Part shown: one piece after another, positions 1,602 through 10,833 of the stretch
Layout: each line of letters opens with the position of its first letter
Numbering within the stretch: position 1 is the first letter of the stretch
IMG/VR virus record: IMGVR_UViG_3300042541_000664
Location: 1 to 21,142 of that record
Origin: a virus
Direction: 5' to 3' (one strand)
Length of the DNA: 21,142 bases
Position numbers and translations under genes: made by a program
Notes under the pieces: model-generated
Databases searched by the model: none
The model's input: the letters and a program-made list of their open reading frames with translations, nothing else
Told to the model about the DNA's origin: nothing

Positions 1602-1632
1602 TTGACACAACCTGAAAAGATGTGCTTATAAT
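1602..1632 (+). promoter_or_regulatory. Sigma70-type promoter (TTGACA, 19 nt, TATAAT)
   Basis: A perfect -35 (1602-1607) and a perfect -10 (1627-1632) are separated by 19 nt. The spacing is longer than the optimal 17, but a TG at 1623-1624 with TTATAA at 1626-1631 gives an extended -10 reading with 18 nt. Start of transcription is expected near 1639, just ahead of the hairpin RNA. Confidence 0.65.
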
Positions 1633-1638
1633 TAAGTG

Positions 1639-1744
1639 TTGCCGTGAGAAGCGACAGATTTAGGCCACTTAATTCTACTCTCGCCCTTGGTTTTTGCCGC
1701 AGGGTTCTCACCGAGGGTAGAGCTAAGTGGCTTTTTCTGTTTTT
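1639..1744 (+). ncRNA. Putative short structured RNA, or transcription attenuator, ending in a T tract
   Basis: This begins just downstream of the consensus promoter. Arms 1664-1671 (GCCACTTA) and 1724-1731 (TAAGTGGC) form a perfect 8-bp stem. Inside it, 1674-1683 pairs with 1712-1721 (10 bp with one G-U), separated from the first stem by a 2x2 internal loop. Inside that, 1684-1690 pairs with 1697-1704 with one bulge. The outer stem is followed by TTTTTCTGTTTTT (1732-1744). The shape, a long hairpin running into a T tract right after a promoter, fits either a free small RNA of about 105 nt or an attenuator in the leader of the 2109 operon. No family is recognised. Confidence 0.55.
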
Positions 1745-1833
1745 GAGACTAGGACTGTGCAATGGGTTAGCGCCATTGTGAACGTTACCTATGTTTTGAA
1801 ACACACTGCTTTATGTGAAGCAGTCCTAGTCTC
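1745..1833. other. Perfect 13-bp inverted repeat enclosing further hairpins
   Basis: GAGACTAGGACTG (1745-1757) and its exact complement CAGTCCTAGTCTC (1821-1833) enclose 63 nt. Within it, CAATGG/CCATTG (1760-1765/1773-1778) forms a 6-bp hairpin with a 7-nt loop, and CTGCTT/AAGCAG gives an alternative stem overlapping the right arm. It has a cloverleaf-like outline but no T-loop consensus, so I do not call it a tRNA. It may be an RNA domain or a protein-binding site. Confidence 0.55.
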
Positions 1834-2108
1834 ACCCCCTCCTACGACAACCGTACTCCAGACGTTACTAAGGGGTAGATATCTGCCTGCGTGGAAGCAA
1901 AGGGTTACGTGGTATGCGCAAGCTAGGGGGCAGTTCCCGAATAATCCACGGTGCTGGTCGTATCTGCAAGCACAGGGGTCAACTAACGTTGACATGCAGA
2001 AGCCTTGATAAGGCGGTGAAACCATCCCTCTCTACTCCTTGGGGTAGGGGGGTCTATGGGTGAAAATTATCATAAGCCCCGCCAAGGGGCGTTTATAAGG
2101 AGAGAGAG
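1834..2108 (+). ncRNA. Gene-free tract rich in hairpins; putative structured RNA or operon leader
   Basis: Successive perfect or near-perfect stems can be drawn: TCTGCA 1963-1968 with TGCAGA 1995-2000, enclosing GTCAAC/GTTGAC (1978-1983/1988-1993); GCCTT/AAGGC (2002-2014); a 12-bp stem at 2027-2052, with G-U pairs, closed by a CTTG tetraloop; and GCCCC/GGGGC (2076-2090). The last hairpin ends 18 nt before the ATG at 2109, the same geometry as the minus-strand leaders at 11.5-13.5 kb. Open frames here have unnatural composition. The tract could be the 5' leader of the 2109 operon or part of a large phage RNA. Confidence 0.45.
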
Positions 2109-2480
2109 ATGAGAAGTAATTTTAGGGTCGGTAAGACTATCGCAGGGTTTGCATATTCAGTTGCAAGACCCGACAGTCCAAACGCAAGGGTTCTATTTGA
2201 TACTTTTGCCAAAACTCAAGACAAGGCTACGCAAAAACTAAAGAGCAGTAAGAAGTATTTTTTCAGCAATGGCGATGGGATCTACAGGCTGTATTCCATC
2301 CACATGACCATCATGCGGGAGTTGGAATTTAATTTGGACGAGGGCACAGAAGGCTTCCCTTGTTTGGATGATGACGAAGAGATTGAGCCGGAAGTCAAAA
2401 TGATCAAGGGGCGACTTGTTGTTGAGGATGCCTTTGATTTAAAGAACCCAATGACAACAACACGCAGGAGAAAAGCATGA
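2109..2480 (+). CDS. Hypothetical phage protein, first gene of the replication operon
   Basis: This 123-residue protein is not recognised. The start is well supported by AAGGAGAGAGAG directly upstream. The N-terminal half is basic with several aromatic residues (KKYFF, YRLYS); the C-terminal half holds an acidic stretch (CLDDDEEIEPE, about 92-102) and ends in a basic TTTRRRKA tail. There is no signal peptide or membrane segment. It overlaps the next gene by 4 nt (ATGA), so the two are translationally coupled. As the first gene of a run that leads to nucleases and the primase-helicase, it probably belongs to early DNA metabolism, but no function can be assigned. Confidence 0.75.
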   Translation: MRSNFRVGKTIAGFAYSVARPDSPNARVLFDTFAKTQDKATQKLKSSKKYFFSNGDGIYRLYSIHMTIMRELEFNLDEGTEGFPCLDDDEEIEPEVKMIKGRLVVEDAFDLKNPMTTTRRRKA

Positions 2481-3220: not shown

Positions 3221-3460
3221 ATGACACGCAATTTTAAGCAAGAGTACAAGACCCAACAAGAACGAGGCGAGCATGAGAACCGAATGGAACGCCAACGTGC
3301 CCGTAGAAAATTGGACGCTAAGGGAGTGACCCGACAAGGTAAAGACGTAGCCCACGTCAAGGCTTTGAGCAAGGGTGGATCCAACGCAGATGGTGTGAGA
3401 CTGGAACCTCCCAGCAAGAACCGCTCGTTTAAACGCAAGTCAGATGGTTCAATGAAATGA
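3221..3460 (+). CDS. Small HNH-nuclease-like protein
   Basis: The 79-residue, very basic protein contains DVAHVKALSKGGSNADG (about 42-58) followed by VRLEPPSKNRSFKR. This pattern (D-x-x-H, a G-G-x-N turn, then N-R after about 15 residues) matches the core of HNH endonucleases and related small phage proteins. The zinc-binding cysteines of longer HNH enzymes are absent. It may be a minimal DNA-nicking or DNA-binding protein. A GTTTAAAC copy lies in the codons for SFKR. The start has a weak SD, and the stop overlaps the primase-helicase start by 4 nt (ATGA), so it is probably coupled to it. Confidence 0.65.
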   Translation: MTRNFKQEYKTQQERGEHENRMERQRARRKLDAKGVTRQGKDVAHVKALSKGGSNADGVRLEPPSKNRSFKRKSDGSMK

Positions 3461-5139
3461 ATCAACGCATCGCTGATTTCGTCAGTGAGTTCCACTTCAA
3501 CGAATCTACTCGGGTAGCTTGCCCGTACTGTTCTGCTGAACGCAGAAAATCAAATCAAAAAGACATGACGCTAACCCGCAAAGCAGACGGGGCGGTCGTG
3601 TTTCATTGCCATCATTGTCAGACTAACGGCTCAGTCCAACCACAACAGGAGAGAATTTTGTCAGCCGTACCCAACCCAACTATTGTTTCAAACAAACTGC
3701 AAGATCAACATTACGCATGGTTAGCCACTCGGGGCATATCACATCAGACCGCAGACAAAATGAAGTTGTTTGCCTCTGAGAAGTACTTTGGCAAACTGGG
3801 CAAGACCGCAGATGCCATCGGCTTCCCCTACTACAGGAATGGTGCATTGGTAGCCGCCAAGTACCGATCATTCCCTGAGAAGGATTTCACGCAAGACTCA
3901 GGCGGTGCGCATGATTTCTTTGGGATTGATTTAATTCAAAAGGATCAGCCACTTATCATCGTTGAGGGCGAGATAGACTGCCTGTCACTCATGGAGATGG
4001 GCTTTGATAACGTCGTAAGTGTTCCATCGGGTGCGCCAATCAAAGTCGCAGATGGAAAGGTTCTGCCCTCTGAAGATAAGAAGTTTGCCTATGTATGGAA
4101 TGCTCGGGAGATACTGGACGCAGTTCCTTACATCATCCTAGCCACTGACCAAGACACTGCGGGTCAAGCGTTAGCCGAAGAGTTGGCAAGACGGATTGGC
4201 AAAGAAAAATGCAGGCTGGCTAAATTTGAAAAGAAAGATTTAAACGAGGTCATGCTTGATGACCCGACAAAGCTAGGGGCGCTACTGGCATCGGCTGTGC
4301 CATACCCCGTCTCGGGGATCTCCGATGCAGGCTCTTATTACGAGCGTTTAAACGAGTTGTATACGAAGGGAACGGGCAAGGGATACTCAACGGGGTACAC
4401 CTCAGTCGATGAAATATACACTGTCGCCCCCGCCCAGTTGACTGTTGTTACGGGTTACCCATCATCGGGCAAGTCCAACTTTGTTGATCAGATTATGGTC
4501 AACCTAGCCGACAAGCACGATTGGAAGTTTGCCGTTTGTTCATTTGAGAATCAGCCTGAGATACATATCAGCCGACTCATGGAAATCTATACCAAGCGTA
4601 GGTTCTTTGATGGCAAGGATCGGATGTCAGAGACCGACAAAGAGATTGCGTTTAAATTCGTTAAAGAGCATTTCCTGTTCATCGATACAAACGGGGAAGA
4701 GCCATCAACACTTGACTCAATATTGGAACGGGCAAGGATTGCCGTTAAGAGGATGGGGGTTCGGGGGTTGGTCATTGACCCGTATAACTACATAGAGTTA
4801 CCGAGGGGTGACGGGACTGAGACAAGTGCCATCAGCGACATGCTGACTAGGGTTCAGAAGTTTTGTAAGGCACATGACGTGCATACATGGTTTGTTGCTC
4901 ACCCATCTAAGATCACCCGACAAGGTACTGAACAGCCCCGCCCTGATGGGATGTCCATCGCAGGGTCGATGGCTTGGTGGGCTAAGACGGATTGCGGTCT
5001 GACTGTCCACAGGAAAGACCATCACGTAGAGATTGCAGTTTGGAAATGTAGGTACAGATGGGTCGGCACTCAGGGTGAGACAACAATGATCTACAACAAG
5101 ACCGCAGGGACTTACTCGGAGAACTTAGATGCCTTCTAA
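3457..5139 (+). CDS. Replicative primase-helicase (zinc ribbon, Toprim, DnaB/RecA-like helicase)
   Basis: 560 residues with the domain order of T7 gp4-type proteins. A zinc ribbon has C22-x2-C25 and C51-x2-C54. A Toprim domain has VEGEID at 169-174 (catalytic Glu) and ATDQDTAG from 229 (the D-x-D metal site). A RecA-like hexameric helicase domain has Walker A GYPSSGKS at 333-340, a Walker B strand ending VIDPYNYIE, then WFVAHPSK and the SIAGSMAWWAKTD segment typical of DnaB-family helicases. It synthesises RNA primers and unwinds DNA at the phage fork. The start lies in an ATGA overlap with the HNH-like gene, and the end overlaps the next gene by 11 nt. One GTTTAAAC copy (4346) falls in the linker between Toprim and helicase. 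Confidence 0.93.
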   Translation: MNQRIADFVSEFHFNESTRVACPYCSAERRKSNQKDMTLTRKADGAVVFHCHHCQTNGSVQPQQERILSAVPNPTIVSNKLQDQHYAWLATRGISHQTADKMKLFASEKYFGKLGKTADAIGFPYYRNGALVAAKYRSFPEKDFTQDSGGAHDFFGIDLIQKDQPLIIVEGEIDCLSLMEMGFDNVVSVPSGAPIKVADGKVLPSEDKKFAYVWNAREILDAVPYIILATDQDTAGQALAEELARRIGKEKCRLAKFEKKDLNEVMLDDPTKLGALLASAVPYPVSGISDAGSYYERLNELYTKGTGKGYSTGYTSVDEIYTVAPAQLTVVTGYPSSGKSNFVDQIMVNLADKHDWKFAVCSFENQPEIHISRLMEIYTKRRFFDGKDRMSETDKEIAFKFVKEHFLFIDTNGEEPSTLDSILERARIAVKRMGVRGLVIDPYNYIELPRGDGTETSAISDMLTRVQKFCKAHDVHTWFVAHPSKITRQGTEQPRPDGMSIAGSMAWWAKTDCGLTVHRKDHHVEIAVWKCRYRWVGTQGETTMIYNKTAGTYSENLDAF

Positions 5140-7699: not shown

Positions 7700-7716
7700 A
7701 GGGGGGAAGCCCCCCT
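7700..7716 (-). terminator. GC-rich hairpin right after the VWA gene (weak terminator or processing stem)
   Basis: GGGGGG (7701-7706) and CCCCCC (7710-7715), with A7700-T7716, form a 7-bp stem with a 3-nt loop that begins at the stop codon of the upstream gene. No T run follows on the minus strand, so it is probably a partial terminator or an mRNA-stabilising hairpin. Just downstream, GTGG/CCAC arms form a small operator-like inverted repeat near 7660-7675. Confidence 0.5.
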
Positions 7717-8387
7717 CATACAGCAAGCTTCAGCTTGTCAAACGCTACAGTGCCCATGTCCTCAAGCTTCTCGATGGTTACAGCGTTGTTGTAAATGTGG
7801 GTCACGTCCGAGCGGATGCCAACCCCGATAGTGGTGATGCCAAGGTTCTCACCCGACAGTGCTTGTTCTCTGCAAGCATCAGCATTGCCGATGCCATCGG
7901 TAAGAAAGAAGCAAACCTTGCGCTCCTCCTGACGATTCAACAGCAACCCGTGGGCATATGACAGGGCGGTGAAGTCCTGAGTACCGCCCCCTGACTGAAG
8001 CCTCTCAAGCATCGGTCTGACACGTTGATAGGGCACGTTGAAGTCTTTGAGCAATGAGACCTCGCACCCGAATGTCACGACACTGGTTGCAACCCCTGCC
8101 TTGGACAGGGTGTCCAGTAGGGCATAGGTTGCTAGGATGGCATGGTACATCTTGGAGTCCAAGGGCTTGGCAGGGCGAAACATTGAGCCTGACACGTCAA
8201 GCACAATGGTCACCGCAGAGTCGATGCCGTCATGTTCTTTCCTACGTTTAAACAGGCGGTCATTGTGAGCCATAGTCGGGAGTGCCCGAACATTCAGCAC
8301 CCCTGACTTGCGGTTGTTTTGGAATTCTTCAAAGCCCGAATTCTCAAACAGCTTTCTGACTGTATAGCGTAACTTGGCGGGAATCAT
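7716..8387 (-). CDS. VWA-domain protein, partner of the MoxR-type ATPase
   Basis: 223 residues with a single von Willebrand factor A domain. The metal-ion-dependent adhesion site is complete: D64-x-S66-x-S68 in LDVSGSM, T136 in GGGTQDF and D164 in FLTDG. The N terminus (about 55 residues) is basic. VWA proteins beside MoxR/CobS-type AAA+ ATPases (NorQ-NorD, CbbQ-CbbO, RavA-ViaA, CobS-CobT) act as the substrate-binding arm of a remodelling complex. Here the usual CobT-like arrangement is split, with the N-terminal part encoded by the gene just upstream. A very strong SD (AAGGAGG) precedes the ATG. A GTTTAAAC copy lies in codons near LFKRR. Confidence 0.88.
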   Translation of the reverse strand: MIPAKLRYTVRKLFENSGFEEFQNNRKSGVLNVRALPTMAHNDRLFKRRKEHDGIDSAVTIVLDVSGSMFRPAKPLDSKMYHAILATYALLDTLSKAGVATSVVTFGCEVSLLKDFNVPYQRVRPMLERLQSGGGTQDFTALSYAHGLLLNRQEERKVCFFLTDGIGNADACREQALSGENLGITTIGVGIRSDVTHIYNNAVTIEKLEDMGTVAFDKLKLAV

Positions 8388-8396
8388 AAGACCTCC

Positions 8397-9401
8397 TTAA
8401 AAGTCGATTGGGAAAGTACGGGGGTTGTCAGCCCTTGTGTGATACCCAGTGCGCATCACGTCATCGGTGCTGTAAGAGCCTCCTGATCCTGCACCCTCGG
8501 GAGGGTTGGCGGTAGGCTCAACCTCACGGGCTTTGACTGTCTCGCCATCCTTTGTAGGAGGCTTCGCAGGGTCAGGCTTGGGGGTAGGTGCATCACCGCC
8601 CTGATCGCCTCCTGTAGGCTGTTCTGAGTCCCCTCCTGAGCCATTCTCATCATCACCCTCACCGCCATCTTGATCACCGCCCTGATCACCCTCATCATCA
8701 CCCTCATCATCGGAGGGAGGGGTTGGGTTGGTTGGCGGTTGGATTGGCTCATCCTCGGGCTTGGTGTTCACATTGTTAAGCTGATCAAACACCCACTTGG
8801 CAACCTCCAAGGTATCCCAAGAATTACCGCAAGTGTTTAAACGTTTGACAGCCTCGGCAAAGATCGGCTCAAGCCCAAGGGCGAGAGGCACTTTGATCTT
8901 TGCGTGTTTACGTCCGTAGACAGCGAGAACAAAGGGGTACTGGACAGGGTCTGACCAGTCGATTGCCTCACCTCTGCGATTCTTGTAAGCCAAGCCCTCG
9001 GCAACCATGCCGTTGATCAGGGCACTGAGCAACTCCTCGATGTTGCCTGTCAGCCCTGCCTTGATGCCCTTGCCCTCGATCCACGCATCCTCTAAGGCAT
9101 TGTGCAACTGGGCAATGTACTGCCCGTGCGCATAGGCTGAGTGGACAGCATCAAAGTCGGTATACATCCAGTGCAACAACTCATGCACTGCCATGCCGAC
9201 ATAGCGCATCAGGTCACCCTGAGTCAGCACTGCATCATCCTTAACGTTGGCAAGTATGACACTGCCACTCTTGTTGATACAGGCGGTTTGTGTACCCGCA
9301 TCCCAACGAACCTCGACAGGACGCAAGCCAAGGTCAGAGCAGATTTTGTGAATGCCGATCACTACGGCACGTTTAAACTGATAGCCATGATAAGTTTTCA
9401 T
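8397..9401 (-). CDS. CobT-like / putative metallopeptidase protein with acidic linker
   Basis: 334 residues in three parts. Residues 1-215 are a folded domain with H73-E-L-L-H77 (HExxH zinc motif) and, 24 residues on, NALEDAWIE (101-109), the N-x-x-E-D-x-x-x-E stretch shared by phage CobT-like proteins. Residues about 223-300 are low-complexity, rich in Asp, Glu, Gly, Pro and Gln. A short C-terminal tail follows. In longer relatives a VWA domain follows the acidic linker; here it is a separate downstream gene starting 10 nt after this one ends. Together with the ATPase upstream this forms a three-gene MoxR/CobS-CobT-like module. Whether the zinc site cuts peptides is unknown. SD GAGG lies 5 nt before the ATG. 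Confidence 0.82.
   Translation of the reverse strand: MKTYHGYQFKRAVVIGIHKICSDLGLRPVEVRWDAGTQTACINKSGSVILANVKDDAVLTQGDLMRYVGMAVHELLHWMYTDFDAVHSAYAHGQYIAQLHNALEDAWIEGKGIKAGLTGNIEELLSALINGMVAEGLAYKNRRGEAIDWSDPVQYPFVLAVYGRKHAKIKVPLALGLEPIFAEAVKRLNTCGNSWDTLEVAKWVFDQLNNVNTKPEDEPIQPPTNPTPPSDDEGDDEGDQGGDQDGGEGDDENGSGGDSEQPTGGDQGGDAPTPKPDPAKPPTKDGETVKAREVEPTANPPEGAGSGGSYSTDDVMRTGYHTRADNPRTFPIDF
8570..8735. repeat. Degenerate tandem repeats coding the acidic linker
   Basis: Short units such as TGATCACC and CATCATCACC recur many times on the plus strand, encoding the D/E/G-rich linker of the 8397 gene in the opposite direction. This type of repeat changes length easily by slippage, so the linker length should vary between related phages. 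Confidence 0.6.
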
Positions 9402-9408
9402 GTTGACC

Positions 9409-10833
9409 TCACAGATATTTTGCTAGAACGCTAGCGTTGATGTAAGCCGACTTGATTGCATCAAGTGCGACACGGCTCTCCTCGGGTTGACGGGAGGTAA
9501 TGGTTGATTCCCATGCCTCATCAACTGAGAGAATGTCCAATGCCCGAATGAAAGCGAGGGCAGAGCGGATAGAGGGGGCGTCGATCACGTCCCCTGTAAT
9601 GACCTTGGCACGGCAAGCACTGATGGCATTGACTACGTGTTCAGCCAACATTTTGTGGCAACCAGTGTGCAAGGTCAGAGCAATAACCTCTTGCTCTTTA
9701 CTCAGGTACTTGAACTCAATCACACGGGCAAAGCGGTCAACCAGTGCGGAATTCATGTTCTGAGTCTTGGCATAGCGTCCTGATGTATCACCATTGGTCA
9801 GGGTGTTATCAGCCGAAAAGACCAAGACACCCTCTGCCCTGCGGTGAACAAAGCCCCCGTAGTTGACTGCACTGTTCGGCTCAAGAAAGCCGTTCAGAGT
9901 AGCCAACTCACCCGCATCTGCCATGCTGATTTCATCGAGCAAAACCACTGTAGACGGGGAAGTGAAAGCCTCCAAGAAAGCACCTTTCTTGAACACTGTC
10001 GCACCATTCTCAAGACCGACAGCACCCGCATAATCATCGGCTGTCGTGTACTTGTGAAAGTTGATACGGGTGTAAGAACGTCCAGTGCGACTAGCAAACT
10101 GTCTTGCAGTCTCTGACTTACCAGTGCCCTTAGCACCGCCAAACCACAGGTTCTCGCCTGTCTTTTGTGAGAGGAGCAAGTGCTTCAGAATGTCCTCTTG
10201 CCACACAAAGTTGGGATCAACATCGGGGCTGTCAGGGGCATCCCAAATGTCAACCATGACAGGGTCACCCTTGGGGTTGCGAACGTCAACACCGAACACA
10301 TCGAGCGCAGATTTGCGATCAATGATCGTTGCCTTGGTAGCGTTAGCCACGACAGCCTCTGCCTTGGCATCTTTGACAGCTTGCGCAAAGGGTTTAAACG
10401 CCTTGGCAATGGCACTGGCAACCTCTGCATTGATCTTGTCCTCATCGAGGTTGGATTGTGATGCAGTAGCAATCTTTTGAACCTGAGCCACAACGTCATT
10501 GACCTTGCTCATAAGGTCACTTGCGCTATCAATGGCAAGCTTGGATTTTCCGAGGGCATCGAGGGCAACCGCCTCGGCACGTACAGCAACTGAGGCTGTA
10601 GCATCAAGCTTGGCGGTGTCTACACTGCTCACATTGTCAGCGACAGGTGAGCAATTCTTGATGTAGTCAAAGTCAGTCAAGCCCTGCTCGATCAGGTCAC
10701 CGAGCCAGTTTAAACGCACCATTTTGTCTTTGTCCTGACGGATATGGTCAGGGGCTTTGAGGGCTGAAACAGCCCCGTTGATAACGAACTTGTCGAGGGT
10801 TGACAAGGTTTTAATTGTGTTCATGGAAGCCAT
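9409..10833 (-). CDS. MoxR-family AAA+ ATPase, CobS-like
   Basis: 474 residues. Residues 1-165 are an extended helical region rich in Ala, Lys and Asp (probable coiled coil). The ATPase core follows: Walker A G-G-A-K-G-T-G-K-S at 232-240, Walker B TVVLLDE at 295-301 (D300, E301), sensor-1 N343 in FSADNTL, and an arginine-finger segment ALVDRFAR at 363-370. The sequence around the core has the character of CobS/MoxR (AAA_5-type) ATPases. Such ATPases form rings and drive a VWA partner; the partner is encoded downstream. A true cobalt chelatase role is unlikely here because no other cobalamin gene is present. SD AGGAGAG lies just before ATG 10833. Confidence 0.9.
   Translation of the reverse strand: MASMNTIKTLSTLDKFVINGAVSALKAPDHIRQDKDKMVRLNWLGDLIEQGLTDFDYIKNCSPVADNVSSVDTAKLDATASVAVRAEAVALDALGKSKLAIDSASDLMSKVNDVVAQVQKIATASQSNLDEDKINAEVASAIAKAFKPFAQAVKDAKAEAVVANATKATIIDRKSALDVFGVDVRNPKGDPVMVDIWDAPDSPDVDPNFVWQEDILKHLLLSQKTGENLWFGGAKGTGKSETARQFASRTGRSYTRINFHKYTTADDYAGAVGLENGATVFKKGAFLEAFTSPSTVVLLDEISMADAGELATLNGFLEPNSAVNYGGFVHRRAEGVLVFSADNTLTNGDTSGRYAKTQNMNSALVDRFARVIEFKYLSKEQEVIALTLHTGCHKMLAEHVVNAISACRAKVITGDVIDAPSIRSALAFIRALDILSVDEAWESTITSRQPEESRVALDAIKSAYINASVLAKYL

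Follow-up and report, generated by a model that had tools for sequence, protein, structure and literature searches.

A modular noncoding RNA is encoded on the plus strand of a gene-free tract in a freshwater phage. It is predicted to be transcribed rightwards from a sigma-70-type promoter, and its main module, B, is exchanged in related phages for one of two other structured RNAs, D and E. The three replace one another at the locus, with one in each genome examined, and each contains a short variable word twice, the two copies varying in step. The tract (1745-2108) is part of a 21-kb virus record (here the window, that is, the whole stretch of DNA analysed) and was read on both strands and folded; we consider its RNA nature near certain. 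At least four structured RNA families without an Rfam entry occur at one place in an abundant freshwater phage group.

The features are collected in Table 1. Relatives of the window were fetched by protein queries (ORF 2109-2480; RusA 888-1325) and by DNA patterns, and are phage contigs from freshwater and other aquatic sources, many of them of 57-65 kb.

Table 1. Features of the RNA locus and of its surroundings in the window.
Feature	Positions	Strand	Description
Palindrome GTTTAAAC, four copies	1380-1524 (1380, 1437, 1475, 1517)		Just upstream of the promoter
Sigma-70-type promoter	1602-1632	+	TTGACA 1602-1607, 19-nt spacer, TATAAT 1627-1632
Module A	~1638-1739	+	5' hairpin 1638-1655; pseudoknot 1644-1650/1705-1711; terminator-like hairpin 1664-1731 and T-run
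Module C, optional RNA	1744-1834	+	Outer stem 1744-1757/1821-1834; conserved GGGTTAGCGCC loop; ACTGCTTTATGTGA(A)GC hairpin
Module B, main structured RNA	~1851-2069	+	11 helices, one pseudoknot
Word, copy 1 (GGTGAAA)	2015-2021	+	Predicted unpaired, between helices of B
Word, copy 2 (GGTGAAA)	2059-2065	+	3' boundary of B
First protein gene 3' of the RNA	2109-2480	+	123 aa; start of the operon leading to the primase-helicase
Primase-helicase gene	3457-5139	+	In the operon after the RNA; phrog_239, E 1.6e-88

Structure of the RNA

The first-pass annotation had described 1745-2108 as a gene-free tract packed with inverted repeats. These are real, but the feature is larger than was claimed and the limits do not hold: the transcript is expected to start at about 1638, the part at 1745-1834 can be set apart as a module of its own, and about 2069 marks the end of the conserved element. 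Folded as RNA, 1741-2110 gave z = -3.16, and none of 100 shuffles was equally stable. The suggestion of a long structured RNA is strongly supported by covariation, by strand-specific wobble pairs and by the conserved promoter. In 27 of the 41 homologues of B, every reading frame across the module is interrupted. Furthermore, 246 of the 265 indels among B homologues are not multiples of three, and no conserved open frame was observed in B across the 41 homologues.

The alignment of these homologues contains 50 pairs in 11 helices, with 95.4% of the cells paired, a value that drops to 39-48% when the partner is slid. Covarying pairs are present, both sides having changed in 26 of the 50 pairs, and none of 500 shuffles was as good. 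The pseudoknot is formed by 1951-1955/1969-1973, which crosses 1963-1968/1995-2000, and its helix reads TCTGCA/TGCAGA in the window and ATCATCA/TGATGAT in others. Wobble cells comprise 197 G-U and 6 A-C, and this excess of G-U indicates that the functional strand is the transcribed one. Some copies are followed by their own terminators (B in L017; E in L175, L185 and L188), so the unit can stand as a noncoding gene complete in itself. We regard B as best explained as the effector module. In some phages an extra domain of ~150 nt is present within the middle of B (L006:2135-2302, L010, L013 and L099). A scan of species genomes for the 3' motif of B returned none.

The individual repeats reported before fared differently. 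The hairpins at 2002-2014 and at 2027-2052 are real and conserved, the latter being placed here at 2026-2052. The two-part stem at 1963-2000 was recovered as an outer helix (1963-1968/1995-2000) around a hairpin at 1978-1993, with the addition that the outer helix also takes part in the pseudoknot. The hairpin at 2076-2090 exists, but it is part of the next gene's leader and not of B: L005, which lacks B, has it ahead of the homologous gene as well. The 13-bp repeat (1745-1757/1821-1833) proved to be a perfect repeat of 14 bp (1744-1757/1821-1834), the longest inverted repeat of the tract, and forms the outer stem of module C. In 18 relatives, C has outer stems of 10-15 bp that differ in sequence around constant inner motifs. 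C was also found apart from the A-B junction (L092:3377-3494, L094:4929-5046 and L175:11067-11184), and the L092 copy has a T-run after its stem, as in a terminator.

Promoter and module A

The promoter has a spacer of 19 nt, the length with the best score in 34 of 46 distinct regions upstream of module A. In most of these 46 regions hairpin A starts 6 nt past the -10 box, so that the expected transcript opens with the hairpin. The 19-nt spacer of the window promoter (1602-1632) carries a dyad (CACAAC...GTTGTG in many relatives), and both resemble promoters that are activated by DNA-twisting MerR-type regulators.

In module A, the 7-nt loop of the 5' hairpin pairs with a bulge of the terminator-like hairpin, forming a 7-bp pseudoknot that is perfect in 44 of 44 distinct relatives and exists in 16 sequence versions. 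When the loop of one version was compared with the partner of another, none of 660 combinations matched. The fold of 1625-1745 is more stable than all 200 shuffles (z = -5.24). Module A may best be explained as a pseudoknotted attenuator that would set how much transcription passes on. It resembles leader attenuators, such as the antisense-controlled plasmid leaders, in that it looks like a pseudoknot-coupled transcription terminator just past a promoter, but it leads into another noncoding RNA and not straight into a gene.

Modules other than A also occur upstream of the element in relatives. At least two more families made of a promoter plus a terminator hairpin stand in for A (before D in L121, L122 and L140; before E in L177 and L193), and at L044:1150-1950 an open frame with an HTH-like start has apparently been inserted between RusA and module A.

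Interchangeable families at the locus

Relatives without B carry D or E. Among the 54 RusA-linked loci with enough sequence, we identified 39 with B, 10 with D, 4 with E and 1 with none; exactly one family was thus found in 53 of the 54 and two in none. The near-complete genomes contain exactly one element in six of six cases, and a single match to the B of the window was obtained in 11 of 15 records, the other four having D or E. The linked loci were sampled through RusA, some further D and E loci having been gathered otherwise, and the sequences share ancestry, so that sequence counts overstate the number of independent events.

D and E are folded RNAs as well: the consensus fold of D reaches -102, compared with -65 +/- 5 for shuffled alignments, and that of E -109, compared with -66 +/- 3, the proportions of G-U to A-C cells being 173:16 in D and 73:11 in E. 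A coding reading, including an apparent ATG frame across part of D, was rejected as the frames are not conserved. In Acidovorax phage AP1, E comes directly after the primase gene and is not preceded by A. In MW202545 (L214:3600-3730), tRNA-like genes lie directly upstream of the promoter of the E unit.

A coupled direct repeat

We noticed that B, D and E each contain a short variable word twice, once in an internal segment predicted to be unpaired and once at the 3' end of the element. The word is 4-10 nt long. In B it is GGTGAAA in the window and GGTTGAAA, GGTGGAA, GGGTGAA or GGGTAAA elsewhere, and the two copies vary in step in 40 of 41 homologues. In D the word comes after GGCTCC and CACC, in E after CTCC (or related) and CACC, and new E words were found in complete genomes (GGGTATC in MW202545, GAGCAGA in phage AP1). 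We counted 19 distinct word pairs in B, 19 in D and 11 in E; the match sums between own copies (131, 154 and 68, respectively) exceed the shuffled maxima (120, 122 and 58), and in each family none of 2000 shuffles was as good.

Near-identical loci in which the word is the sole difference allowed us to exclude that A, C or B contains a third RNA strand complementary to it. L026 shares the A module of the window, yet both of its word copies differ in step, and L003 has a C module and a B core almost as those of the window, yet again both copies differ in step. These comparisons mean that no complementary strand inside the RNA explains the coupling. In cis, the one constant complement of the word is the template strand of the DNA. 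A further reading, in which ribosomes hop from one copy to the other, was rejected because the frames are not open.

Genomic setting

Among the proteins of the window are a PD-(D/E)XK exonuclease (minus strand), RusA, a primase-helicase, and terminase and portal proteins. The 123-aa protein encoded directly after the RNA has no match in Pfam or PHROGs, and the first gene downstream of the element differs widely among relatives. Across phage types, the neighbours of the elements are genes for a replication initiation protein (phrog_9474), primase (phrog_2249), RusA, RuvC, NinB, Erf and a RecE-like exonuclease, and in AP1 the element comes after the helicase and primase genes. An exception is D in L153, where the near neighbours resemble, by eye, ParB-type and terminase genes. 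Family A DNA polymerases were not found in 15 relatives, nor those of families B and C in 6 relatives. By eye, the region of Synechococcus phage MinM2 that holds RusA and primase has no comparable element.

At the element GC skew turns from negative to positive, where gene direction also turns, and in most genomes the global minima of GC skew are not at the element. As proof of an origin, GC skew was discarded, being confounded by gene orientation.

Elsewhere in the window (7716-10833, minus strand), a VWA-domain (CobT-like) gene stands beside an AAA ATPase related to a PHROG named porphyrin biosynthesis, the two forming a cobaltochelatase-like or MoxR-like pair. Among the deposited genomes, OQ594354, OL906435 and PP438419 are phages reported from different cyanobacteria, all 65,014 long and with identical match scores, and may be one phage deposited three times.

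Comparison with known RNAs

Neither at the gathering threshold for the window nor at permissive thresholds for the window and its relatives did Rfam return anything credible, and blastn of the tract against 50,697 phage records gave no match. Published descriptions of these RNAs were not found in narrow literature searches. Group I or II intron, HDV-like, tmRNA and tRNA-like readings found no support by eye. GOLLD, ROOL, HEARO and OLE had been put forward for comparison, and none of the 4227 Rfam models matched 1300-2130 on either strand at E ≤ 5; judged by these models, the element is none of the four. GOLLD and ROOL resemble it in being large pseudoknotted phage RNAs known from metagenomes; they measure ~660 to >800 nt, are often near tRNA islands and form RNA nanocages (PMC12286853). 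The RNA described here is shorter, lies in a replication/recombination cluster and matches no Rfam model, and in the window there is no tRNA gene that would correspond to the tRNA-island setting of GOLLD and ROOL.

A parallel is offered by ColE1 RNA II, which likewise is a structured transcript from a sigma-70 promoter, measures several hundred nt, lies next to replication functions and relies on host polymerases. Masukata and Tomizawa are said to have described, in 1990, how a G-rich loop of the ColE1 RNA pairs with template DNA near the origin, at a C-rich stretch. Similarly, B, D and E each contain an RNA segment with the sequence of the non-template strand close to their 3' edge. The element differs from RNA II in occurring in phages, in three interchangeable families and with a word that varies between genomes, and its part in priming is putative. 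No plasmid similarity was found by blastn (72,556 records, E ≤ 1), and thus no homology to ColE1-type replicons; by this measure the element is not a ColE1 homologue, although it may work in a similar manner. For a counterpart of antisense RNA I, a promoter-like site was seen on neither strand, in a scan whose settings exclude a spacer of 19 nt and which did not pick up the forward promoter either. ColE1 priming proceeds from a persistent RNA-DNA hybrid, the trigger of which has been called speculative (PMC5043065).

Phage T4 provides a further parallel, since at oriF and oriG promoter transcripts form R-loops that prime leading-strand synthesis, and the transcripts of the present element would likewise be promoter-driven phage RNAs that may act as R-loop primers. 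The T4 R-loops are independent of specific sequences, the rules of their formation are listed as an open question, and the passages of the review consulted mention neither a conserved folded RNA nor coupled repeats at these origins (PMC3016281).

Possible roles of the element

We hypothesize, tentatively and at somewhat less than an even chance, that the element is a transcript that acts in cis by holding on to its own template DNA, and so becomes an R-loop primer of replication regulated by module A. Copy 1, left unpaired in the fold of the nascent transcript, would pair with the template DNA at copy 2, and this pairing would keep an RNA-DNA hybrid behind the host RNA polymerase. The persistent hybrid would then open the duplex and prime phage DNA replication with host enzymes, as in the case of ColE1 RNA II, while module A would regulate the primer supply. 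That the element has a replication role is possible, in our estimation, and likewise somewhat below an even chance. The 3' edge of the element is purine-rich (0.65-0.75, compared with 0.55), which suits a stable RNA-DNA hybrid. Further points in favour are the folded RNAs themselves, the single element per genome, the coupled words, the replication and recombination genes nearby, the polymerases not found in relatives, the GTTTAAAC sites centred near the element, and the precedent of R-loop priming in ColE1 and T4 (PMC5043065, PMC3016281). The shortness of the word, the E of AP1 that stands without A and the missing plasmid similarity count against a primer, and a terminator-like hairpin ahead of the effector would be odd in a constitutive one. 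If the hypothesis is true, the word is free to change provided that both copies change together.

A trans-acting structured noncoding RNA, a scaffold or a word-guided one in which copy 2 is a matched site or a 3' processing end, would account for the complex pseudoknotted fold, for the terminators after some B and E copies, as in a stand-alone RNA, and for the variable words, which suit a guide; one copy per genome also fits an essential trans RNA. We nevertheless deem it unlikely, though worth serious attention, because such an RNA needs no in-step repeat of the word beside the gene in three unrelated families, and because the steady setting is that of replication genes, with no recombinase or nuclease gene constantly attached. 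Somewhat less credible is a cis-regulatory leader, in which A, alone or together with C and B, responds to a signal by adjusting how far the early replication operon is read through or translated. The position ahead of the operon in the window, the conserved terminator-like hairpin and the promoter with its 19-nt spacer speak for such a leader, but in several phages E follows the primase gene and has a terminator at its end, the gene that comes first after the element differs greatly between relatives, and neither the coupled repeats nor the exchange of B, D and E is explained; for A alone, a leader function is a serious rival and may hold.

The replication setting, the single copy and the GTTTAAAC sites centred on the element would also agree with an element acting at the DNA level and folded as single-stranded DNA (single-strand initiation hairpins, a recombination site or a packaging site). 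This we regard as very improbable, given the strand-specific wobble pairs of B, a promoter start point that coincides with the first base of hairpin A and the T-run that ends A. Ordinary gene-free sequence with chance inverted repeats, for which only the lack of annotation speaks, has a negligible probability, being refuted by the covariation in A, B and C and by the consensus folds of D and E, which surpass those of shuffled alignments by a wide margin.

Returning to the priming transcript, the three unrelated phage RNA families might have converged on an exposed word by which each RNA recognises its own DNA at the 3' edge, amounting to an RNA-programmed, self-addressed origin carried as a swappable cassette; we put this forward as speculative and rather doubtful. 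If the word does address the RNA to its own DNA, the element would be a sequence-defined and testable case of a transcript kept on its template for the start of replication.

The palindrome GTTTAAAC

The palindrome upstream of the promoter occurs on average 2.0 times per 420 nt upstream of A, against a background of 0.37, and relatives contain 35-49 copies per 60 kb, whereas the 8-mer palindrome next in frequency has 5-6. In five genomes the centre of the GTTTAAAC distribution lies 1.1-3.6 kb from the element, and the sites are densest around the RNA element. The copies are possible protein-binding sites, possibly for an initiator, for partition or for a repressor; they could also be operator sites of the early region, which counts against reading them as part of an origin. 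The window itself contains 28 sites in its 21 kb, with fewer than one expected (1380, 1437, 1475, 1517, 3427 and 23 more).
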